DNA from: an uncultured Aeromonadales bacterium
GTDB lineage: Bacteria > Pseudomonadota > Gammaproteobacteria > Enterobacterales > Succinivibrionaceae
Length of the DNA: 64,000 nt
Assembly (NCBI GenBank): GCA_902782145.1
Contig: CACZLZ010000016.1
Span: forward strand, 1 to 64,000
Reading direction: 5' to 3'
Below are positions 21,118-33,350 of the stretch, piece after piece (position 1 is the stretch's first letter; every line of letters starts with the position of its first letter). A model generated the notes under the pieces. It saw only the letters and a list, made by a program, of their open reading frames with translations. It did no database searches and had not been told where the DNA came from. Made by a program: the position numbers and the translations under genes.

Positions 21118-21336
21118 TCAGCGGGCTCTGAACACAATGCGGCCCTTGCTGAGATCATAAGGGGTCAGCTGCACCGTCACCTTGTCACCGGTGAGGATGC
21201 GGATGTAGTTCTTTCTCATCTTGCCGGAAATGTGGGCCACAATCTCGTGACCGTTGTCCAGCTGGACTCTGAAGGTGGTATTGGGCAGGGTCTCAATAAT
21301 GGTTCCCTGCATTTCTATGCTGTCTTCCTTGGACAT
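21118..21336 (-). CDS. infA: Translation initiation factor IF-1
   Basis: IF-1 binds the ribosomal A site during initiation. The 72-aa product is a single S1/OB-fold domain with the family motifs [33 protein letters not shown] and [17 protein letters not shown], and exactly the E. coli length. The start is preceded by AGAGG. In E. coli infA lies next to aat; here an accessory block of about 11 kb separates them. Confidence 0.98.
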
Positions 21337-21676: not shown

Positions 21677-22831
21677 TCACCACCGGATGGTGTCATCCTC
21701 CCGGATCAGCCGGTTCAGACGATCCCTGACCCCCGCCTCGTCACGCTCAATGGAGGCAAAGAAGTTATCCAGCCTGCCGGTGACCTCCCGGTGCAGGCGG
21801 TCCAGGGCTTCGGCATACTTGTCCCGGTACAGATCCTTCCGCCAGAACATGGAGAACAGGCCGCCGGTGAGGACGGTCAGCACCAGGGTGGCCACATACT
21901 CGGCAAAAGAGCCGTCCCAGGCATCCGCGGGGGTGAGCTGCTCGTCAGCCATGAGGCTGGCAAACTCTATGCCGCACTTTTTAAGATCCAGACCCGTGTA
22001 GCCCTCAATGACGTTTTTGCACAGGCTGTTGATCTGGAGGGAATTCTCCTCAAAGATCCGGTACACCTCCTGGGAGCGGCTTTTGTAGCAGTCCGCCGAG
22101 TGCCGGTTCAGTTTCCGGTTCAGATCCTCACTGTAGACGGTGAAGAAGCCGGCCTCATCGTCAAAATACTCCATGGAGGATCTCTTGGCCTCCTCCAGGG
22201 CCTGGGCCATGGAAGACCGCATGTTGCTGATGAGGTGCTGGAAAAGGTTTTTCCTCAGGTTCTGGCAGATCTCCTGGAACAGCTCCTTTCTGCCGGCAGT
22301 CGCCGTGACCCGGCCGTTTCGGAGCTTTTTGCTGACGGACTCGATCTCAATCCTGGGGGCGTCAGGATAGCTGGTCCCCAGGACCTCATGGGCTGCCTTC
22401 TTCTCCGCCTCGGAGCACAGCCCCCATTTGGTCATGGCAAAGATCAGGGGGTAGCCCTCAGCAATGATCCCGTCCAGAATGTGGGTCCGCTCAAATTCGT
22501 CCAGCCGCGACTGCTTGGCGTCATAGCAGTAGATCACCGTGTGGATCCAGTCCTTCACATCGGGATTGCGCCCGGTGCGGGCCAGCTCGTCCTTGAGGTT
22601 TTCTAGCCACTCCCCGGCCTTGTCCGGCTCCAGGCCCCAGCTGTCCCAGACCACAATCTCCATGTTCCGGAACATGAAAGGATGGTGGCGGTGGAGTCCC
22701 CTAGCGGTCACCGGCCTTCCCGCCTTGGCCAGGGCAACCTCCTGACCGTAAAGATAGTTGACCAGGGTTGACTTCCCGGCCCCGCTTTTCCCCAGGATCA
22801 GGATGTTGGTGGCAAACTTCTTATGGCGCAT
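21677..22831 (-). CDS. P-loop GTPase, YfjP/IRG-like, copy A
   Basis: The 384-aa product starts at once with a G domain: G1 GKSGAGKS at residues 14-21, a Thr-containing G2 candidate in PVTARG, and G3 DSWG at 63-66. The G4 position reads TKWG (134-137), without the Asp that normally reads guanine. The C-terminal half is helical and has one hydrophobic segment (VATLVLTVLTGGLFSMFW) followed by a basic stretch, suggesting membrane association. The start was chosen for its GGGAGG site and because copy B starts at the same point. It is a close tandem paralogue of the next gene and the last member of the accessory block. Function unknown. Confidence 0.72.
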   Translation of the reverse strand: MRHKKFATNILILGKSGAGKSTLVNYLYGQEVALAKAGRPVTARGLHRHHPFMFRNMEIVVWDSWGLEPDKAGEWLENLKDELARTGRNPDVKDWIHTVIYCYDAKQSRLDEFERTHILDGIIAEGYPLIFAMTKWGLCSEAEKKAAHEVLGTSYPDAPRIEIESVSKKLRNGRVTATAGRKELFQEICQNLRKNLFQHLISNMRSSMAQALEEAKRSSMEYFDDEAGFFTVYSEDLNRKLNRHSADCYKSRSQEVYRIFEENSLQINSLCKNVIEGYTGLDLKKCGIEFASLMADEQLTPADAWDGSFAEYVATLVLTVLTGGLFSMFWRKDLYRDKYAEALDRLHREVTGRLDNFFASIERDEAGVRDRLNRLIREDDTIRW

Positions 22832-23052
22832 GGCCTTTCCTCCCTGTTGTACGCACATCCATGTCTCCTGCCCTTCAGAGATCCCGTCCGGCATTTCCGT
22901 GAGCACTGACTTCGCCCTCCGTCTCCGGCCCTGCAGAAGCATTCCTGCCCGGCTGGTTCTCCCTGGGCTGCTCCGGTCGGTCGGCCTGTTCTACTCTTCC
23001 TGGACCTGTCCGGCGCACATCTGCTGGCGGATGACGGGACTGCGGAGAGATA

Positions 23053-24246
23053 TCACCACTGGATGGTGTCGTCCCCCCGGATCAGCTGGTTCAGACGGTC
23101 CCGAACCACTGCATCGACACGCTCAATGAAAACGAAGAAGTGAACCAGCCTTAAGGTGACCTCCCAGTGCAGGCGGCCCAGGGCCTCGGCATACTTGTCC
23201 CGGTACAGATCCTTACGACTCTTCCCCCAGAACATGAGGGACAAGCCGACGGGACCAAAAAAACTCAGCAGGACGTTCTTCAGGATGTGCGGTCCCGTGG
23301 TGGACACAAACTCGGCAAAGGAGCCGTCCCAGGCATCATCGGGAGTGAGCAGATCGTCAGCCATAAGGCTGGCAAACTCTATGCCGCACTTTTTAAGATC
23401 CAGACCTGTGTAGCCCTCAATGACGTTTTTGCACAAGTTGTTGATCTGGAGTAAATTCTCCTCAAAGATCCGGTACACCTCCTGGCAGCGGCTTTTGTAG
23501 CAGTCCGCCGTGTGCCGGTTCAGTTTCCCGATCAGCTCCTCACTGTAGACGGTGAAGAAGCCGGCCTCATCGTCAAAATACTCCATGGAGGCTCTCTTGG
23601 CCTCCGCCAAAGCCTGAACCATGGAGGATCGCGTATTGCTGATGAGGTGCGAGAAAAGGTTTTTCCTCAGGTTCTGGCAGATCTCCTGGAACAGCTCCTT
23701 TCTGCCAGCAGTCACCGTGACCCGGCCGTTTCGGAGCTTTTTGCTGACGGACTCGATCTCAATCCTGGGGGCGTCAGGATAGCTGGTCTCCAGGACCTCA
23801 TGGGCTGCCTTCTTCTCCGCCTCGGAGCACAGTCCCCATTTGGTCATGGCAAAGATCAGGGGGTAGCCCTCGGCAATGATCCCGTCCAGAATGTGGGTCC
23901 GCTCAAAGTCGTCCAGCCGCGACTGCTTGGCGTCATAGCAGTAGATCACCGTGTGGATCCAGTCCTTCACATCGGGATTGCGCCCGGTGCGGGCCAGCTC
24001 ATCTTTGAGATTTTTCAGCCACTCCCCGGCCTTGTCCGGCTCCAGGCCCCAGCTGTCCCAGACCACAATCTCCATGTTCCGGAACATGAAAGGATGGTGG
24101 GGGTGGAGTCCCCTGGCGGTCACCGGTCTTCCCGCCTTGGCCAGGGCAACCTCCTGACCATAGAGATAGTTGACCAGGGTTGACTTCCCGGCCCCGCTTT
24201 TCCCCAGGATCAGGATGTTGGTGGTGGCTAACTTCTCATGGCACAT
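23053..24246 (-). CDS. P-loop GTPase, YfjP/IRG-like, copy B
   Basis: The 397-aa product is nearly identical to copy A over the G domain and middle region, with the same G1 (GKSGAGKS), G3 (DSWG) and altered G4 (TKWG). It diverges at the C-terminus, where the hydrophobic stretch is longer (HILKNVLLSFFGPVGLSLMFW) and carries an insertion. The upstream leader, including the ribosome-binding site and a decayed coding-like segment, is also duplicated, so the unit arose by tandem duplication of about 1.4 kb. Both copies lack disabling mutations, suggesting selection for two versions that might heteromerise. Confidence 0.72.
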   Translation of the reverse strand: MCHEKLATTNILILGKSGAGKSTLVNYLYGQEVALAKAGRPVTARGLHPHHPFMFRNMEIVVWDSWGLEPDKAGEWLKNLKDELARTGRNPDVKDWIHTVIYCYDAKQSRLDDFERTHILDGIIAEGYPLIFAMTKWGLCSEAEKKAAHEVLETSYPDAPRIEIESVSKKLRNGRVTVTAGRKELFQEICQNLRKNLFSHLISNTRSSMVQALAEAKRASMEYFDDEAGFFTVYSEELIGKLNRHTADCYKSRCQEVYRIFEENLLQINNLCKNVIEGYTGLDLKKCGIEFASLMADDLLTPDDAWDGSFAEFVSTTGPHILKNVLLSFFGPVGLSLMFWGKSRKDLYRDKYAEALGRLHWEVTLRLVHFFVFIERVDAVVRDRLNQLIRGDDTIQW

Positions 24247-24457
24247 GGTCTTTCCTCCAAGTTGTACGCGCATCCGGATCTCATCATACTCCTCAGAGAT
24301 CCCGTCCGGCATTTCCGTAAGCACTGACTTCACCGTCCGGCATTTCCGTGAGCACAGACTTCACCCTTCGTCTCCGGCCCTGCAAAAGCCTTCCTGCCCG
24401 GGCCGGGATCCGGAAGGGAACTCATTCACCCGATCCGCCCGTGGCAGGCCCCGCGCC

Positions 24458-27412
24458 TTAAGGCTGGTCCGGATCCCGGCAGATCCACAAAGCCGGGCGC
24501 ACCAGGGCGAAGGGATAGCTGACGGCGTTGCCCCCGGGGCTGACAGCCCCGTTCTCACTGACGCCGGCAGCCTTGTTCTCCAGTCCCCCTGGGCTCCTGA
24601 GCCACCAGAAGGATCCCCCGCTGACCCCCACCCGGCAGCCGCGGCTGACAGCCAGGTCTGTGCCCTGGCAGATCCGCTGGGCATTCTTCAGTCCCAGGTC
24701 CCGGATCTCCTCCAGGCTCAGGCAGAAGATCTGATCCTCCGTTACACTGCCCCCGGGGATCCCCTTTTCCCGGTTACCGGGATTCTGGAGCACGGAGTGG
24801 CGGATCCGGGCCCTTTCCCCGGGGGAAAAGGCCGCCGTCAGAAAAGAGCTGTTCAGCCACCGGCGCAGATCACAGTGCTCCCAGTCCACAGCCTCGTCCC
24901 GGGAATGGAAGGAGGCAGTTTCCAGCCCGCGGCAGCTCAGCAAAAGGATCATGCCGGACTCCTGCCGGACCACCAGCCACTCAATGGGCTCCGGGGATCC
25001 GCTCCGGGACTGGCGGAAAGTGCCGAACCTCATGGTTTCCCCCAGAAGGAGCTCAGGATACCGGGTGCCGGCTATGCTGATGGTGCCCGGCTCAGCCCTC
25101 CGGGAGGCCAGATCCATAAGGCCCCTGATCTCCGGCCCCAGCACCGGGTTTCCTGAAAGGGCTTCCAGGGCACGCCGGTGCACCGTGACAAAATCCCGGA
25201 TCCTGCCGGGCCGGTCCCTCTCACCCGCTGTCAGATCCCGGAGATAGCCGGCAGCATCTTCTGAGGACGGGAAGGTGAGGTAGTCAAGGCTCACCACGTC
25301 CCCGGCGGCCCGCAGCACCCGCTCCAGAAGATCCTTCAGATCCCCGTGGCGCATCAGCTCCCGGATCTCCCGCTCATGGAAGCCCACGAAATCCCGGAAA
25401 TACCCCGGCTGCTCCCGGATCCCCGCCAGCATCTCCTCCAGAAAAGAAGCCAGATCTTCCCGGGACGGAAACAGCCGATCCCCCAGCATCACACTCTGCG
25501 CCATTCTCTCCTCCAGCTCCCTGCACCAGTCCCGGATCCACACCTGCCGGCAGACACTCTTCAAGGCGTCCCGGTAGCGGAGCAGCAGATCCCGCACCAC
25601 ATAGCCCCGGCGATCAGACGGCAGCGCATCAATACTGCGGATCATGTCTCCGCCGTCCAGGAAGAAGTAGTCCCCGTCGCCGAACTCCGCCCGTGAATAG
25701 CGGTCAAGGACGCCCTGGACCGCCGCGGCACATTCTTTTCCCCCGAAGGCCCGGACATAGAAGGCCAGCTCCTCCCGGATCTCCCCGGTGAACTTCAGAA
25801 AGGCCCCCGGATCCCGGGATGCCAGCTCATCCATGACCCGGGCAAAGTCTGCCGGGCTCTCATAAATCCGTCCACCGGCGGCCATCCGGGAGTTCCCGGA
25901 AACGGCATAGCCGAAAAGCAGCACCGTCTCATTCCGGCCGCATCCCAGGGCCGCAGCCTGGCTGCGGATCTGCTGGAGCAGTTCAGCCAGATCCGGATCC
26001 CCGAGCACCTCCCGGGCATAAAAATCCCCCAGGGATCCGGCGGCAAAGGCATGGGCTGCCAGGAAGATCTCCCGATCCTTCCCCGGATCCGCTCCCCCGG
26101 ATCCGCTGCCGTCCTCCCCTCCGGCCAGACGGAGGGCCAGGGCCGCATCCACGGCCCGGCTGCCAAACTCTTCCAGGCTCCCGAACTCCTCCCCGCCGGC
26201 GCACAGCATCCTCAGTTCCGGAGCCAGCCGGTATGCCAGCTCGCAGACAATCCCCGGATCCCCGCCGTCGGGGGAAGACTCAAGCCTTTCGGCGGCCTGA
26301 CGGCACAGCTGCCCCATCTCCGGATCCAGCAGGGAGAAATGATAGGACAGGATCCCCCGTCCCAGCTCCTTAAGGCCCGCCTCCGGATGCAGCAGGAGGG
26401 AGCGGCAGAGCTCCGGCACCGAGGTGTGCCGGATCCCCATGAAAGTATAGGGCAGCGTCTCCATGGTCCGGCCCGGGCTGGCGCCGGCCGCCCCGGGCAC
26501 CGGCCGTGGTTTGCCCTCCAGCCAGCACTGGACCTCCTCATAGCCCCACCGCCGGTTGGGATTGTCCCGATCGTGGCGGCCGGAAATATCCCGGTAGGTC
26601 AGACCCAGCACCAGATCCCTAAGATCCGGGGGGAAATCCTCCGGAAAGGAGATGGTGCTGATCATGGTCAGCCGGGACAGTTCCTCCTCAGAGGCGGCGC
26701 TGCCGGCAAAGGGGGTGTGTCCCGTGAGCAGCTCATAGACAGTGATCCCGAAAGCAAAGTAGTCCGAGCTCAGGCTGAAGACGCCATGGACAACCTCCGG
26801 GGCGGCATATCCCGGAGTCAGGGAGCCTGAACCGACCACCAGGGTCTGTCCCCCGGAGTCTGCGCTGATCCCGAAATCCGTCAGAAGAATATGCTCCCCC
26901 TCCGGATCGGGGATCAGGTTGGCTGGTTTCAGATCCCGGTGCAGGATCCCCAGTTCATGGATGGCCCTGAGCCCCTCATTCACCGAGGGGATGATCAGTT
27001 TCCTGAGTTCATCCGGGGAAAAGCACTCCCCGGAGCGCAGCACCTCCCCCAGGTTGGGACCGGGATAGTAGGGCCGGACCGCATACTGGTGCCCCTCATA
27101 TTCTCCGGTCAGGAGCACCGGGGCCACCCAGGGGCTCCGGAGATCCTTCAGCTTGGCCACCACCTTCGGATCCAGAGAGCCCTTCCGGCGGTAGAGCTTC
27201 AGCACATACTCTTGGGATCCGCCCTCTCCGCCGCCCCCGTCCCAGGAAGCCAGATAGATATCAGCCTCCCCGGAGCACACCGGCAGCCGGGATCTGATCT
27301 GGCACGGACCCACGGTGATCCCGGTGAGATCCGGCACCGCCTCGCTTTCCGTGGACATCCGGGTACGGTTCAGCCGGGCCCGGAAATCGTCATTAATCCT
27401 GGTGACGGACAT
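24458..27412 (-). CDS. Ser/Thr protein kinase with C-terminal DUF6273-like domain
   Basis: The 984-aa product carries a eukaryotic-type kinase domain at about residues 35-300. It shows a degenerate Gly loop (SGEAD), Lys72 in the VLKLY strand, HRDLKPAN at 158-164, DFG at 179-181 and an APE motif, so it looks catalytically complete. A long helical region (about 320-790) has no recognised domain. The last 180 residues resemble DUF6273: PIEWLVV, DLRRWLNSSFLTAAFSPGE, SFWWLRSPGG and VRPALWI. The start has GAGG eight bases upstream; the longer frame upstream has no support. No membrane segment is seen, so it is probably cytoplasmic. It lies between zinc-ribbon and GTPase genes on the same strand. 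Its substrates may be those neighbours. Confidence 0.82.
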   Translation of the reverse strand: MSVTRINDDFRARLNRTRMSTESEAVPDLTGITVGPCQIRSRLPVCSGEADIYLASWDGGGGEGGSQEYVLKLYRRKGSLDPKVVAKLKDLRSPWVAPVLLTGEYEGHQYAVRPYYPGPNLGEVLRSGECFSPDELRKLIIPSVNEGLRAIHELGILHRDLKPANLIPDPEGEHILLTDFGISADSGGQTLVVGSGSLTPGYAAPEVVHGVFSLSSDYFAFGITVYELLTGHTPFAGSAASEEELSRLTMISTISFPEDFPPDLRDLVLGLTYRDISGRHDRDNPNRRWGYEEVQCWLEGKPRPVPGAAGASPGRTMETLPYTFMGIRHTSVPELCRSLLLHPEAGLKELGRGILSYHFSLLDPEMGQLCRQAAERLESSPDGGDPGIVCELAYRLAPELRMLCAGGEEFGSLEEFGSRAVDAALALRLAGGEDGSGSGGADPGKDREIFLAAHAFAAGSLGDFYAREVLGDPDLAELLQQIRSQAAALGCGRNETVLLFGYAVSGNSRMAAGGRIYESPADFARVMDELASRDPGAFLKFTGEIREELAFYVRAFGGKECAAAVQGVLDRYSRAEFGDGDYFFLDGGDMIRSIDALPSDRRGYVVRDLLLRYRDALKSVCRQVWIRDWCRELEERMAQSVMLGDRLFPSREDLASFLEEMLAGIREQPGYFRDFVGFHEREIRELMRHGDLKDLLERVLRAAGDVVSLDYLTFPSSEDAAGYLRDLTAGERDRPGRIRDFVTVHRRALEALSGNPVLGPEIRGLMDLASRRAEPGTISIAGTRYPELLLGETMRFGTFRQSRSGSPEPIEWLVVRQESGMILLLSCRGLETASFHSRDEAVDWEHCDLRRWLNSSFLTAAFSPGERARIRHSVLQNPGNREKGIPGGSVTEDQIFCLSLEEIRDLGLKNAQRICQGTDLAVSRGCRVGVSGGSFWWLRSPGGLENKAAGVSENGAVSPGGNAVSYPFALVRPALWICRDPDQP

Positions 27413-27600
27413 GGGCAAATCCTCATCTGAACATGACTGTCTGACATCGGGGCTGCCGGGCACCCCGGATCTCCCGGAAGATACCGGGATCCGATCCGGC
27501 CCGGCAGCAACCCGGTGACAGCCGAAAGAAGGCGGGAGCGCCACCCGGCCCGGAGTTTCCCGGATCCGGAGCCGTCCCGGGGACGGGGCAGCACATCCGG

Positions 27601-28446
27601 TCAGTCCCCGGACTCAGCCTCCCCGGCAGCCTGGGGCTCCTGATCGGCATCATCCCCGGCAGACTCCGTCTCCAAAACAGCATCTTCCCCGTCAGGATCG
27701 CCGTCCAGCTCCGCCAGATCCAGGCTCATCCGGCACAGGAGTTCCCCGGTGATCCGGACGCACTGCTTCAGGTAACCGCAGATCGCCACCTCCGGCTCCT
27801 TCTCCAGGTAGTCCGGATCCATAGGCCAGCACTCCCCGGTCTCCCGGGCCAGGACACGGTCCACCTGCTCACCTGGCTCCCCCAGAAGCAGGCACAGGAA
27901 CTCATCCTCAGTCAGGCTGTCCCCCAGAGCCACCGCCTTCATGATCCGGCGCTTCTTCTCCTCATCCTGAAAATCCTGCTCCAGGCTCCCGGCAGTGATC
28001 CGGGGAAGCTCCGGACAGAGCCTGCCCCCGCAGATCCCGTCCAGGAGGCGGTTGCCGGTGTTCAGTAAGACGATGATCTCATCGAGTTTGGTCATCAGCA
28101 TATCCCTGCCCTCCAGGGTGAGGGTTCCCAGGCGCTCCTGGAAAGCCTTCTCAGATCCGGGATCTGCACTCTCCTGGGCTGCGGGATCCATATCCTCATC
28201 CTTTACCAGAAGCTCATCCAGGGCATCCATCTGCCGGATCTCCGTGTCCAGGACCGCAATCACCGCAGCCATGCCGGCGGAGGAGAGTTTGTCCGAAAGA
28301 TCATAGACATCCTCAATCCCGTGCATGCGCATCAGTTCCTTCTCCTGCTCCAGGACTGCCGCAATCTGGCTGCTGCCGCAGTGGGGGCAGATCATGGCGG
28401 CGGGCTTGCTCTTGCCGCAGACAATACAGGTTCCGTTTGCTTTCAT
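27601..28446 (-). CDS. Zinc-ribbon protein, paralogue 1
   Basis: The 281-aa product opens with a four-cysteine zinc ribbon (CIVCG and CPHCG, residues 8-24). It continues as an acidic, helical protein, ending in an Asp/Glu-rich tail. A NRLLDGICGGRLCPELP segment in the middle matches NRLLETAAGCRLCPYV in the next gene, so the two are paralogues, and the Cys pair may form a second metal site. No enzymatic motif is visible. It lies 188 bp upstream of the kinase gene. It may be an adaptor or kinase substrate, which is inference only. Confidence 0.6.
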   Translation of the reverse strand: MKANGTCIVCGKSKPAAMICPHCGSSQIAAVLEQEKELMRMHGIEDVYDLSDKLSSAGMAAVIAVLDTEIRQMDALDELLVKDEDMDPAAQESADPGSEKAFQERLGTLTLEGRDMLMTKLDEIIVLLNTGNRLLDGICGGRLCPELPRITAGSLEQDFQDEEKKRRIMKAVALGDSLTEDEFLCLLLGEPGEQVDRVLARETGECWPMDPDYLEKEPEVAICGYLKQCVRITGELLCRMSLDLAELDGDPDGEDAVLETESAGDDADQEPQAAGEAESGD

Positions 28447-28618
28447 TTTCTTCTATCTCCAGTTCGTACCAAAAAAAACACTGTCCGATCCCGGGTGCCG
28501 GGGCTGTTGGCCCCCGCCGCCGGATCCGGGGATCTGTCAGCCCGGATCCCCGCCGTAAGACTCAGCTATGGCGGGGGACATGTCCCCAGGAGCAGAGACG
28601 GCGCCCCGGATCTAAAGC

Positions 28619-29416
28619 TCACGCCCGGCTCGTCCCAGGTTCAGCCCCGGCCTCACCGGCAAGAGTCAGCAGTGCCTCTCCCAGTTCACCCAGCTCCCGG
28701 GCCAATGTCCCGGAACGGGAACTGAGGTAGCAGGACACCAGCTGTGGTCCCCGGAGAAGGGCCAGCTCAGAGTCCGTGGCACCGGACTCCCGCAGTTCCC
28801 GCACCATAAACTCCCGGTCATCCTCACTCCCGGCGCTGTCCAGCATCTCCTGCAGGCTCAGTTCCTGGACGTAAGGGCAAAGCCGGCAGCCGGCGGCCGT
28901 CTCCAGAAGCCGGTTGGCGCAGTTCACCATGAAGGTCATCCGGCTGTATGCCGCGGCATCCCGTTCAAGATCCGCCTGCAACTCCTCCTCATCCTCCCCG
29001 GGAAACATGGCGCTGATCAGGAAGTCCTCCATCTCCTGCCCGTCTTCGGCATTCATGGCCTGCTCCAGGATGCCGGCGAGGTGATCCGTCACTTCCTCAT
29101 CCTGATCTGCGAGCCGGGCTCTGAACTCGGCGGGAGCACTTATGCACCTGCCGGCGAACAGGAGCAGATCCCCGGACTCCTCCACAAGGCCGTGCTTCCT
29201 GAACAGATCCTCCGCTTTCCGGGAAAGAGCCGCAAACTGGTTCCCGCCGCAGTGGGGACACACCATGGAGGGACTCATCTTCCAGCCGCACTGCAGACAG
29301 CTGACCTCATCCACGCCCATGCTGGCAGAAGACGGGCGGAGTAGCTCCTCAGGTGACACGGTGCCGGATGGCGCCTGATCAGCCGCCGGCGCCCCGGCGC
29401 CGGATCCCGGCCTCAT
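28619..29416 (-). CDS. Zinc-ribbon protein, paralogue 2
   Basis: The 265-aa product has a 38-residue Ala/Ser/Pro-rich lead, then a zinc ribbon (CLQCG and CPHCG). An acidic helical body follows with the shared NRLL...RLCP segment. Its start overlaps the stop of the upstream GTPase gene by four bases (ATGA), indicating translational coupling. That supports this ATG over an internal one at MGVDEVSC. No catalytic motif is visible. Duplication of the zinc-ribbon gene parallels duplication of the small GTPase gene in the same block. Confidence 0.6.
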   Translation of the reverse strand: MRPGSGAGAPAADQAPSGTVSPEELLRPSSASMGVDEVSCLQCGWKMSPSMVCPHCGGNQFAALSRKAEDLFRKHGLVEESGDLLLFAGRCISAPAEFRARLADQDEEVTDHLAGILEQAMNAEDGQEMEDFLISAMFPGEDEEELQADLERDAAAYSRMTFMVNCANRLLETAAGCRLCPYVQELSLQEMLDSAGSEDDREFMVRELRESGATDSELALLRGPQLVSCYLSSRSGTLARELGELGEALLTLAGEAGAEPGTSRA

Positions 29417-30570
29417 GCCGGATCCTCCTCATCCAGCCCCTTTTCCTTCCAGTCCCGGGCCTCCTTGGCGTACTTCTTCACATTTTCAATGAAACTGTCC
29501 CCGAAAAAGTCGCTGAAATTGACCGCCAGGCCCGCAAGCTCCCGTTCACACATCATGCGGCAGGTCTCGTTCAAGGCCTTGCCCAGGCCGTAGGTCAGGC
29601 TGAAGGCCACCGAGGCGTTGACGATCCCGCCCATGATCTGCCCGATCCCGGGAATGAACTTGATAATGTTGCCGGCAACAAACCGCCCCAGCATGGGTAA
29701 GATCTGATCGATGCAGGCCGCCTTCAGCAGGTTCTGCATCTGATTCATGTTCCAGACACTGAGGATCCGGCCCACCATGGCCAGCTGGACAGGGGTTATG
29801 ATGGCGGCGTCTGAGAAGGGCACCGGGGAGACGGCTGCGGTTCCGGCCATGGCCGAGTACTCCCGGGTGAGTTTGACGCAGTAGTCGTATTTCCGGTCAA
29901 AGGCCCGGCCGCAGGCGATCATGAAGGCATCCTTCCTTGACTCCTCCAGGTTGCCCAGGGTCCACTCATAGAGGGCGTCAATTCCCATGCCGGAGGTGTC
30001 AATCTCATGGGCCACCATGGGATCCGTGGAGCTTTCAAACACCGCCGTGTCCGATCCCGTGGCGGACTTCACCGTGTCCGCCAGCACATCTGAATCCTCC
30101 TGGCTGCACATGTCCGCCTGGGTCAGGATCACGGCAATGGGACGCCGGCGGGTCCTGAACTCCTTTATCACGCTGATGTCAGCGTCGGTAACCCGGGCCC
30201 CGGCAGAGCTGATGCAGTACCAGATGATGTCCACGGGATTGCCGTTTTCATCCTGCCGATCCATGAAGTCCGTGATGATGGAGAAATAGTCCTGGCCCTC
30301 GCCGCCGCTGCCGAAGTTGGCCCCGGTCTCGTAACCCTCGGAGTCATGGATGATCACAGGAATATCCTCAGCCTGGATCTCCCGGATCCCCCGGGTCTGG
30401 GGGCGGCCGCTGCCGGCAGCACACACATCACGCTTGAATACCAGGTTGCACAGCGTGCTTTTGCCGCATCCGGTGGATCCGGCCAGCAGGATCCGGGGCT
30501 TGTCCAGGGAGCTGACAAACTTTTGCATCTCGTTTTTGATGTCGCTTTTGACGTTTTCAGTGTCAAGCAT
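29413..30570 (-). CDS. Era-like GTPase with DUF697-like C-terminus
   Basis: The 385-aa product has a G domain with G1 GSTGCGKS at residues 31-38, G3 DSEG at 76-79 and G4 TQAD at 150-153, which keeps the guanine-reading Asp. The C-terminal part (PVPFSDAAIITPVQLAMVG, then FIPGIGQIMGGIVNASVA) resembles DUF697/YcjF-type membrane-associated tails. The start has an AAGGAGG site eight bases upstream. It is the first gene of the leftward block and is coupled to the zinc-ribbon gene by an ATGA overlap. Divergent transcription from the WYL regulator suggests shared control. Confidence 0.75.
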   Translation of the reverse strand: MLDTENVKSDIKNEMQKFVSSLDKPRILLAGSTGCGKSTLCNLVFKRDVCAAGSGRPQTRGIREIQAEDIPVIIHDSEGYETGANFGSGGEGQDYFSIITDFMDRQDENGNPVDIIWYCISSAGARVTDADISVIKEFRTRRRPIAVILTQADMCSQEDSDVLADTVKSATGSDTAVFESSTDPMVAHEIDTSGMGIDALYEWTLGNLEESRKDAFMIACGRAFDRKYDYCVKLTREYSAMAGTAAVSPVPFSDAAIITPVQLAMVGRILSVWNMNQMQNLLKAACIDQILPMLGRFVAGNIIKFIPGIGQIMGGIVNASVAFSLTYGLGKALNETCRMMCERELAGLAVNFSDFFGDSFIENVKKYAKEARDWKEKGLDEEDPA

Positions 30571-30861
30571 GGGAAGTTCCTCCTTCAGAGTGAAAATTGA
30601 TGCAGCATGGGGGATGCACAGATCGGCGGCTCAGGGCAAGATGGAAGAGCCTCCGAGCCTCCCGATGCCTGTCCGGCTCCCGTCCCCCGGCTCCGGGATC
30701 CGCTTTGGCGATCCGGCAGAAAACTGACCGGATGCGCCCTCATTGAACCGGTTCCGGAGCAGTTCCCGGACGCCAGTCATGTCCGGGGCCGGAACGGCGG
30801 GGAGACGGTAACAGCAGGATCGCCAGATCCAGGGACTCCGGCACGCTTAGGATCCTACGAA

Positions 30862-30890
30862 GAAAACTGTTCATAATATGGATAGTTTTC
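30862..30890. promoter_or_regulatory. Inverted repeat in the GTPase/WYL divergent region
   Basis: GAAAACT and AGTTTTC form arms around a 15-bp spacer in a short AT-rich island of an otherwise GC-rich 662-bp divergent region (30571-31232). This is the sort of site a dimeric WYL regulator could bind. The right arm lies in ggatagttttcc, which resembles the second site at 31066. Confidence 0.4.
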
Positions 30891-31065
30891 CCTTCATTCC
30901 CGCCCTGTCCGGTCCGTCATTCCGGATCCTATCCGGGAATGCCGGAGTCAGCCACCGGTGACGCCGCCATATGCGATGAAGTTCATAACCCAGGCGCCCC
31001 GGTGCCGGAAGGCAGGATAGCTCACCCTATTGGCGGAATAATAAACAGCCATCAATCCATGAGAC

Positions 31066-31077
31066 GGATAGTTATCC
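31066..31077. promoter_or_regulatory. Second operator-like site, GGATA-N2-TATCC
   Basis: The 12-bp near-palindrome GGATAGTTATCC lies 155 bp upstream of the WYL gene. The related ggatagttttcc lies at 30880. A TACAAT hexamer at about 31174 could be the -10 of the WYL gene, with no good -35. Confidence 0.35.
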
Positions 31078-31232
31078 CCTAAGATCATCCATGGAGTTTT
31101 CCCGGATCAGACACAGCTCCGGAAAACAGTGCCATGATCCGGCTCCGGCAGCATTTTCCGGAGACCGGATGCTCTACAATCTCAATGGAGGCACGATCTG
31201 CCAGATCAGTGCCAGGCAACAGAGGAGATACC

Positions 31233-32234
31233 ATGCCAAGAAAAATTGACGAGGACGCAACCACAGGCAACAAACTGCTGCGGCTGTTCCGGAAACTGAT
31301 GTTCACCCACAGCAAGCTGTACGTGGCGGATCTGGCCAGGGAGCTGAACTGCTCCCGGCAGACGGTCACCCGGCTGCTGAATGAGATCGAGAATGTGATG
31401 GGAAGCCAGCTGCAGTCAGGACTGGACAGCAACCGCAAATGGTACCAGTACAGCCATGACGGCCTGCCGGTTCCGGGACTGGAGATGGAGGAGCTCAGGC
31501 TCCTGAGCGTCTGCCGGGATCTGGCAGATCCCTACATCAGCGATGAGATCAGGGATCGGCTGGATCGGTTCATCATCGACACCACCGTGGCCCTCTTGGG
31601 AGACGATGGGTTTGCCAGGGACTATCAGAAGATCCTGGCCCCGGACTACCGGTTCTCCAGCAAGGGAACCCTTGACTACACGCCCCATGCCGCCACCATC
31701 GCCACACTGGAGAACGCCATCCGCAACGGCACCATTCTGAAGATCACCTACAGCTCCCAGAACAGTTCGGCGGTAAAGGAGATCATCTTTGCCCCCCGGA
31801 GGTTTGTCTGCCAGAGCGGCACTCTGTACGTCATCGGCTCAAGCCTCACCGGCGACATGTCAGCCATTGAAAAGCTCCGCTCCCTGGCGGTCCACCGGAT
31901 CAGCCGCCTGGAGGACACCGGCCAGAAATGCCAGCTTCCCCAGCCCGACGCCGATCTGGGGGACTTCGGTCTGCCCTGGAGCAGCAGACTGTGCACCTTT
32001 GTCATAACCTTCAGGCCCTCCAGCGCCGTGGCCTACGTCAAGGAGCGCATGTGGTGCAGCACCCAGGAGTTCAGGGATCTGCCCGACGGCGGCTTGGAAC
32101 TCACCCTGAAGACCAAAAGCGGCCCGGAGGTGATCTCCTGGTGCCGGGGATTCGGGGACTGTGTGACCTCAGTGACCATCAACGGCCAGAAGGTCGCCAA
32201 TATCATGAGCAATGATATCTTCCGGCAGATGTGA
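31233..32234 (+). CDS. WYL-domain transcriptional regulator
   Basis: The 333-aa product has an N-terminal winged helix-turn-helix (about residues 15-65, SKLYVADLARELNCSRQTVTR). A WYL domain begins near residue 150 (ILKITYSSQNSSAVKEIIFAPRRFVCQSGTLYVIG), followed by a WCX-like C-terminal extension. WYL proteins such as BrxR and CapW are known regulators of anti-phage islands, often sensing nucleic acid or nucleotides. The start was chosen for AGAGGAG six bases upstream; the frame is open 33 codons further. It is transcribed away from the kinase/GTPase block. Confidence 0.85.
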   Translation: MPRKIDEDATTGNKLLRLFRKLMFTHSKLYVADLARELNCSRQTVTRLLNEIENVMGSQLQSGLDSNRKWYQYSHDGLPVPGLEMEELRLLSVCRDLADPYISDEIRDRLDRFIIDTTVALLGDDGFARDYQKILAPDYRFSSKGTLDYTPHAATIATLENAIRNGTILKITYSSQNSSAVKEIIFAPRRFVCQSGTLYVIGSSLTGDMSAIEKLRSLAVHRISRLEDTGQKCQLPQPDADLGDFGLPWSSRLCTFVITFRPSSAVAYVKERMWCSTQEFRDLPDGGLELTLKTKSGPEVISWCRGFGDCVTSVTINGQKVANIMSNDIFRQM

Positions 32235-32452: not shown

Positions 32453-33196
32453 TCAGTTCCCGGCCTCCTGGCGGGGACGCCCGATGCTGACAAGTTCCCG
32501 GATCTGCTCCTCCACACCTCCGGCGGGATCCGGGAAGATCACCCCGGGCTCCTTGAAGGAGGTCTCAGGCCAGGCCTGACCCCACTTGGCCAGCAGTTTC
32601 CGGAAGAACTTCCGGGGATATTCCCGGCAGCCCAGGGAGGCGGTGTGATCATTGAGGATCTGGGAGTCGATGTAGCGGAACCCGTAGCGGCGGCAGTGAA
32701 GCACAAAGGCATAAAAGGCCAGCTTGGAGGTGTTGCTCTCCCGGCTGAACATGGACTCCCCGCAGAAGATCCGGCCCACGCACAGGCCGTACAGTCCCCC
32801 CACCAGCTCGTCCTCCTGGTTGAACACCCCGGCAGAGACGAAGTTGGGCATGCTGGCATACAGCCGGGGAAAATCCTCCCCGATCCAGCCGTCACCATCC
32901 TTCCGGGGAATGTTCCGGCAGTTTTCCACAATCTCCTGCTTCCGGGTGTTGATCCGCACCTGGTACCGGCCGGGGCAGGATCGCAGGAACTTCACCATGC
33001 TCCGGGAGATCTTGATCTCATTCAGATCAAACAGCGCCCGCTGCCGGGGACAACCCAGGATCAGATACCCGGGACGCTTTTCCGAGGCCATGGGAAAGAT
33101 CCCCTGGGAATACATCTCCATAAGGATCAGCTGATCCAGCCCCTCACAGGGAGTGAGGACGTAGTCCTTGTCCTTGAAATAGTCCACAAGCCCCAT
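32453..33196 (-). CDS. aat: Leucyl/phenylalanyl-tRNA--protein transferase
   Basis: Aat adds Leu or Phe to proteins with N-terminal Arg or Lys, creating N-degrons for ClpS-ClpAP. The 247-aa product has the family core: QGIFPM, YFKDKDYVLTPCEG near the start, VGRIFCGESMFSRESNTSKLAFYAFV and DSQILNDHTASLGCREYPRKFF. The ATG at 33196 matches the family's N-terminus; an upstream ATG would add 29 residues with no similarity. Length is close to E. coli Aat (234 aa). Proximity to clpA and clpS groups the N-degron pathway. Confidence 0.95.
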   Translation of the reverse strand: MGLVDYFKDKDYVLTPCEGLDQLILMEMYSQGIFPMASEKRPGYLILGCPRQRALFDLNEIKISRSMVKFLRSCPGRYQVRINTRKQEIVENCRNIPRKDGDGWIGEDFPRLYASMPNFVSAGVFNQEDELVGGLYGLCVGRIFCGESMFSRESNTSKLAFYAFVLHCRRYGFRYIDSQILNDHTASLGCREYPRKFFRKLLAKWGQAWPETSFKEPGVIFPDPAGGVEEQIRELVSIGRPRQEAGN

Positions 33197-33350
33197 GGCC
33201 GCTCCCGTCTTCAACCAGCCGCTCCTCCGGAGCGGTCGATCCGCCGCTCTGCTGATCATTCTGATCCGCTGATCGTAAATCATCAGATCCGCCGCTACCC
33301 TGCGCCGCCGACCCGCCGATCCTCAGATCCGCTGTACGCCGCTCCCCGGC

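Follow-up and report, generated by a model that had tools for sequence, protein, structure and literature searches.

The closest described class of systems to the locus reported here is that of the DO-GTPase/GAP1 systems (PMC7159879, eLife 2020), which occupy mobile neighbourhoods and combine paired paralogous GTPases, zinc ribbons and a likely membrane location, with variable partners and occasional protein kinases. These features are shared by a block of six genes facing a divergent WYL regulator, which lies within a 64,000-nucleotide stretch of DNA (hereafter the window; assembly GCA_902782145.1, contig CACZLZ010000016.1, positions 1 to 64,000) from the 3.18-Mb draft genome of an uncultured Aeromonadales bacterium of the rumen; its family relatives are Succinivibrionaceae, among them Ruminobacter, Succinimonas and Succinivibrio. 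Unlike the DO-GTPase/GAP1 systems, the block has no GAP1, GASH or FNIII components, its GTPases fall into two divergent families (A/B and C) that pair with each other, and its zinc ribbons stand on separate proteins; none of its proteins gave a DO-GTPase or GAP1 Pfam match at E up to 1. We read the block as a horizontally acquired conflict module that on balance is probably directed against phages, a role assigned by association with the neighbours of its relatives.

Juk and Eleos appear to be functional analogues of the block rather than its families. In Juk (PMC13282480), JukA is a sensor with interchangeable effectors; no window protein matched JukA in PADLOC, but the window GTPase families bracket or follow JukA-family genes elsewhere, and the kinase and zinc-ribbon genes of the window occupy the place held by JukA in those sibling loci. 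Eleos (LeoA/LeoBC), like the window, has paired large GTPases, and relatives of the WYL regulator precede LeoA/LeoBC-like triplets in the family. The Eleos matches of the window GTPases in PADLOC covered P-loop stretches only (3.7e-5, 3.9e-6 and 0.002), with the best LeoBC-matched stretch spanning about 20–27 residues, and by Pfam cut-offs these GTPases are not dynamins. The kinase recalls those of Thiohalocapsa and others whose C-type-lectin antigen-sensor tails are diversified by diversity-generating retroelements (DGRs; PMC10907252), in that a kinase domain occurs, in a putative conflict setting, among proteins with lectin-like ligand-binding parts; in the window kinase the domain concerned is DUF6273, and the window genome has no DGR-type reverse transcriptase. 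The likeness to PD-T4-6 and other PADLOC kinase defence genes is limited to the Ser/Thr kinase domain, the tail and neighbours being different. A preliminary description of the locus, made from the sequence alone, knew of no described system with this exact set. No such set is known in Pfam, NCBIfam or PADLOC, no NCBIfam model fits the GTPases, kinase or zinc-ribbon proteins at cut-off, and PADLOC matched the window proteins at domain level only; however, since related GTPase-centred conflict systems have already been described, the block is less isolated than that description supposed.

The six genes lie on the minus strand at 21677–30570, between infA (21118–21336, minus strand) and aat (32453–33283, minus strand), and face the WYL gene (31134–32234, plus strand); the arrangement is as first described, and all seven frames are intact. 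In order of transcription the block comprises GTPase C (29413–30570, 385 amino acids), the zinc-ribbon proteins ZnR2 (28619–29416, 265 amino acids) and ZnR1 (27601–28446, 281 amino acids), a Ser/Thr kinase (24458–27544, 1028 amino acids in its longest frame), GTPase B (23053–24333, 426 amino acids) and GTPase A (21677–22942, 421 amino acids). ZnR2 overlaps GTPase C by 4 nucleotides. The region between the WYL gene and GTPase C (30571–31133) is expected to hold promoters; a simple scan found no sigma-70-like site in it and was uninformative. The regulator consists of helix-turn-helix, WYL and WCX domains, which together with its divergent position agrees with the make-up of WYL regulators of defence; judged from orthologues, it likely starts at an internal ATG near 31233.

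All three GTPases carry MMR_HSR1-type G domains (Pfam) that by sequence resemble septins, Der, Era and immunity-related GTPases in the Protein Data Bank (PDB). GTPase C has the P-loop GSTGCGKS and the motifs DSEG and TQAD; GTPase B has the P-loop GKSGAGKS and the motifs DSWG and TKWG. The label of a DUF697-like GTPase given to GTPase C in the preliminary description holds for its hydrophobic C-terminal part, but the DUF697 match fell below the Pfam cut-off (20.8 vs 27.7 bits). GTPase A has one hydrophobic segment, near residue 349. Of the two pairs of paralogues recognised earlier, GTPases A and B arose by a recent tandem duplication (their DNA is 93.5% identical across 1041 bp, with nonsynonymous divergence dN 0.069 and synonymous divergence dS 0.171); ZnR1 and ZnR2 share only 31% identity. 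Each zinc-ribbon protein has a clear N-terminal CxxC...CPHC zinc knuckle despite sub-threshold Pfam zinc-ribbon matches, and ZnR2 has an uncharacterised region besides.

The two GTPase families are nearly constant companions across the family. GTPase C was found in 12 of 57 family genomes, at 19 places, four of them cut by contig ends and 15 scorable. It is linked to an A-type GTPase at 14 of the 15. The two are directly adjacent at ten loci and separated by a JukA-family gene at three; the remaining two are the window, where both zinc-ribbon genes and the kinase stand between C and A, and a locus of UBA3769 (C70), which has a kinase and no A-type GTPase. The JukA-family gene at these loci matches the PADLOC JukA model at 7e-53. 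Of 56 family genomes, 21 carry such genes, and in five of these, from two genera, the gene adjoins GTPase C: the order C-JukA-A is found in four genomes of the window's genus, including the window genome itself (L052) and congener G004, in which only C-JukA is seen, at a contig end, and the order JukA-C-A in a genome of another genus (G071). The contig end of G004 reads C-JukA-HsdM and another contig end HsdS-HsdR-A, all on one strand, which suggests that, with the two ends joined, a type I restriction system is nested between JukA and GTPase A.

Conflict-type genes also surround other relatives of the GTPases and regulator. Distant kin in Campylobacter concisus UNSWCS (L123) comprise a C/A pair of GTPases and a second C-type GTPase, which, together with an 82-residue zinc-ribbon protein and a WYL gene, adjoin a type III CRISPR locus with RT-Cas1 (RT, reverse transcriptase) and Cas6 identified by PADLOC and Cas2-like and Cas10-like genes named by eye. 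Three of the seven neighbourhoods of WYL homologues inspected in the family hold conflict-type genes. One genome (G067) combines a WYL gene with three dynamin-like GTPases and a zinc-ribbon protein, and another (G061) two WYL genes with TerB and three dynamin-like GTPases (the two layouts lying at L225:6517–14505 and L227:7747–17173); a third (G068) has two WYL genes beside a TOTE primase-helicase (L231:862–6157). The WYL/dynamin triplets, which are distantly LeoA/LeoBC-like, possibly represent an undescribed Eleos-type layout. Because relatives of the block thus adjoin JukA-family, type I restriction, type III CRISPR, dynamin and TOTE genes, we favour defence over a housekeeping role. Distant C-type GTPases were present on 72 plasmid records, among them the 7.6-kb Acinetobacter plasmid pXBB1-4, whose GTPase genes overlap, and phage and viral collections yielded only distant single GTPases. 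A phylum-wide profile search for GTPase C recovered only the window's own genome among 399, a weak negative given that the initial filter scored no more than four candidates in each genome.

The same genes could instead form a regulated stress or envelope-response module not dedicated to phages, in which the kinase would sense a cue from the envelope or from inside the cell, and membranes would be remodelled or guarded by the GTPases, in outline like YcjX/YcjF of the phage-shock regulon. The weak DUF697 match of GTPase C, a feature it shares with YcjF, and the hydrophobic segments in A/B and C are consistent with this, as are several relatives, Ruminobacter amylophilus and Succinimonas amylolytica among them, whose GTPase pairs stand without obvious defence genes. 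We nevertheless consider such a module unlikely: a patchy spread (12 of 57 genomes), switching of sites, carriage on plasmids and defence neighbours better suit an accessory conflict system.

Insertion of the block between infA and aat is specific to its lineage. In congeners G001 and G003, infA and aat are directly adjacent and the block is missing; in G004 there is no module in the infA/aat neighbourhood; and in G002 a single lone DUF6273 gene (L150:4597–5277) stands between the two genes, which hints at an insertion hot spot or a remnant. Fixation of the genes at this locus throughout the family with a known housekeeping role, which the preliminary description named as a refuting outcome, is thus contradicted by four congeners that lack the block there. 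Among 14 family genera, aat itself was detected in the window's genus only and elsewhere has been lost or has strongly diverged. The nearest kin of the kinase, of GTPases A/B and of the WYL regulator lie in a Succinimonas-type genus (g8). The A/B GTPases are sister to homologues of that genus (support 97/95), and the kinase groups with its kinases, the other kinases of the window genome forming a separate clade. The only close homologues of the regulator (59% identical) occur in two g8 genomes, UBA3769 (G028) and RUG12170 (G021); the Succinimonas type strain (G011) has none. As the congeners are without the block and these kin lie in g8, horizontal acquisition is the simplest reading. Composition gives no mark of foreign origin, since the guanine plus cytosine content of the block genes (57–65%) brackets the window value (60%).

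The same two g8 genomes hold the regulator, GTPase C and the kinase together at another site. In UBA3769 (L069), where the divergent layout is the same, the WYL gene faces a GTPase C (50–51% identical) and a full-length kinase (42%); this unit has no A-type GTPase and adjoins accD (named by eye from sequence), not infA. In RUG12170 these genes are divided between two contigs: one terminates in accD, the WYL gene and the initial 66 residues of GTPase C, and the other opens with the remainder of that GTPase and then the kinase. As the two breaks coincide within GTPase C, at identical residues, the two ends probably form one locus. In a full-length tree with 15 other family kinases, the three that are linked to GTPase C group as a single clade (100/99), and the WYL, GTPase C and kinase genes are co-inherited. 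The distribution of this core is patchy: in G011, WYL homologues are lacking and none of the GTPase C genes adjoins a kinase. As an observation apart, the UBA3769 kinase is convergent with two zinc-ribbon proteins that carry long arrays of DUF285 repeats (L069:13652–17620).

These arrangements also bear on whether the block is one system. A mobile GTPase pair and a separate kinase/WYL unit might have met in one hot spot, with the zinc-ribbon genes as passengers; the UBA3769 unit has no A-type GTPases, GTPase pairs occur elsewhere without a kinase, the zinc-ribbon pair is found here only, and the lone DUF6273 gene of G002 indicates that the infA-aat site may attract insertions. Such a composite origin seems distinctly improbable to us, as the genes share a single strand and one divergent regulator, GTPase C and ZnR2 overlap, and kinase and GTPase C go together in three genomes, which represent two genera. 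A toxin-antitoxin or other selfish stabilisation cassette would likewise be accessory, mobile and divergently regulated, with distant GTPase kin on small plasmids, but is very improbable in view of a large, multi-component layout with no small toxin-antitoxin pair, recombinase or replication gene.

The kinase is the candidate sensor of the proposed conflict module. Pfam assigns it a Pkinase domain (8e-28) and a C-terminal DUF6273 domain (2.5e-20; 24482–24955, minus strand), so that the DUF6273-like tail of the preliminary description is real. The catalytic residues K116, D204, K206, N209 and D223 are intact, with HRDLKPAN at 202, DFG at 223 and APE; the likely start is an ATG at about 27412, inside the longest frame. 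The kinase domain matches the fold of PknB (4eqm; template modelling score 0.76 of the target), and a fold search with the whole protein returned kinase domains alone. The middle of the protein is predicted with moderate confidence to consist of repeated units, each a short beta hairpin with helices. The tail was modelled with a predicted local distance difference test score of 92.9; searched against the PDB with Foldseek, it gave a sole significant match, the bacterial IgA peptidase 9qa6, and no classical lectin, and searched against a viral library it matched phage DUF6273 proteins. In published work DUF6273 has been grouped with C-type lectin folds by DALI and is described as being targeted by DGRs in phages (PMC10743442, PMC11792537). 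Relatives have greatly expanded the domain, with 57 matches in UBA3769, 31 in RUG12170 and 15 in G011; the window genome has five, and 14 control genomes have none.

Several results count against an anti-phage module. The complete six-gene set was found in the window genome only, and no other defence genes flank it there. The zinc-ribbon pair occurs nowhere but in this genome, a comparison with 60 genomes having given no relatives. A large lineage-specific expansion (G028, G021, G011 and G003; L048–L085) comprises kinases whose tails are exchangeable (DUF6273 or DUF285/BspA-like repeats) and reaches 19 or more matches per genome; most of these paralogues have no GTPase neighbours, so that such kinases may serve a different role. 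Four of the five JukA examples share one genus and may reflect a single inherited event, and a JukA-family gene is no proof of defence because JukA models also match E. coli. GTPases A/B have TKWG where NKxD is usual, for which reason their GTP specificity is only presumed. The new defence or stress-signalling system proposed in the preliminary description is accordingly upheld in part. Co-occurrence of its genes outside this locus was confirmed for the WYL, GTPase C and kinase core and for the GTPase pair, and the defence neighbours agree with the proposal; the kinase, GTPase pair and zinc-ribbon pair as a whole set were found nowhere else.

If the block is an anti-phage conflict module, its parts suggest how it may work. 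The WYL protein would control the divergent operon, probably holding its expression down until infection is signalled by a nucleic-acid or nucleotide cue. The kinase, whose catalytic domain is complete, would bind a foreign or stress ligand by means of the lectin-like DUF6273 tail and phosphorylate the zinc-ribbon adaptors, the GTPases or both. GTPase C and A/B might then assemble at the membrane as a hetero-oligomer that stops phage replication or the cell. A broader reading, which we hold to be possible but doubtful, is that an undescribed class of anti-phage cassettes shares a constant frame, the two GTPase families, with interchangeable sensing units and one membrane-acting effector; the units slotted into the frame would be nothing, JukA, JukA plus type I restriction, or the zinc-ribbon/kinase unit, and the kinase tail would be of the same family as phage receptor-binding domains. 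Should the anti-phage interpretation of the block hold, it would link three subjects that tend to be treated separately: GTPases resembling those of animal immunity (septin, immunity-related GTPase and GIMAP-like G domains), receptor-like kinases with lectin-like sensors, and the JukA family. It would also offer a small cloneable operon for asking how a bacterial kinase might switch on membrane-acting GTPases during infection. Rumen Succinivibrionaceae, some of which have DUF6273 domains by the dozen in a single genome, would then be a place to look for immune-like receptors that are still uncharacterised.

Two minor observations concern reverse transcriptases and Cas6. Solitary Cas6 genes (L115:5217–6419 and L117:5369–6364) lie a few kb upstream of GTPase pairs; their surroundings showed no further cas genes, and they were left out of the evidence for defence. 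Drt2-like RT genes occur at L055:2813–5662 and L072:16020–18359, and in Ruminobacter amylophilus such a gene stands directly behind two kinases of the window-kinase family.

We rejected diversification of the window kinase tail by a DGR, a DGR-type RT being missing from the window genome. The block has no DGR RT, and the only RVT_1 gene of the genome, on another contig, is Drt2-like; a reading of the 949-residue RT gene of this genome as RT-Cas1 was rejected because the gene is Drt2-like. Among 25 kinase tails, positions equivalent to those varied by retroelements showed no excess variability (permutation p 0.29 and 0.13). Congener G004 contains at least five DGRs in one genome (L247 6124–6883, L248 5482–6270, L250 4421–5636, L251 4739–5535 and L252 6452–6866). 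Every mismatch in its five template/variable repeat pairs falls at a template adenine (chance 5e-8 to 1e-12), and two of the five pairs lie in DUF6273-type proteins beside RTs and phage-like genes.

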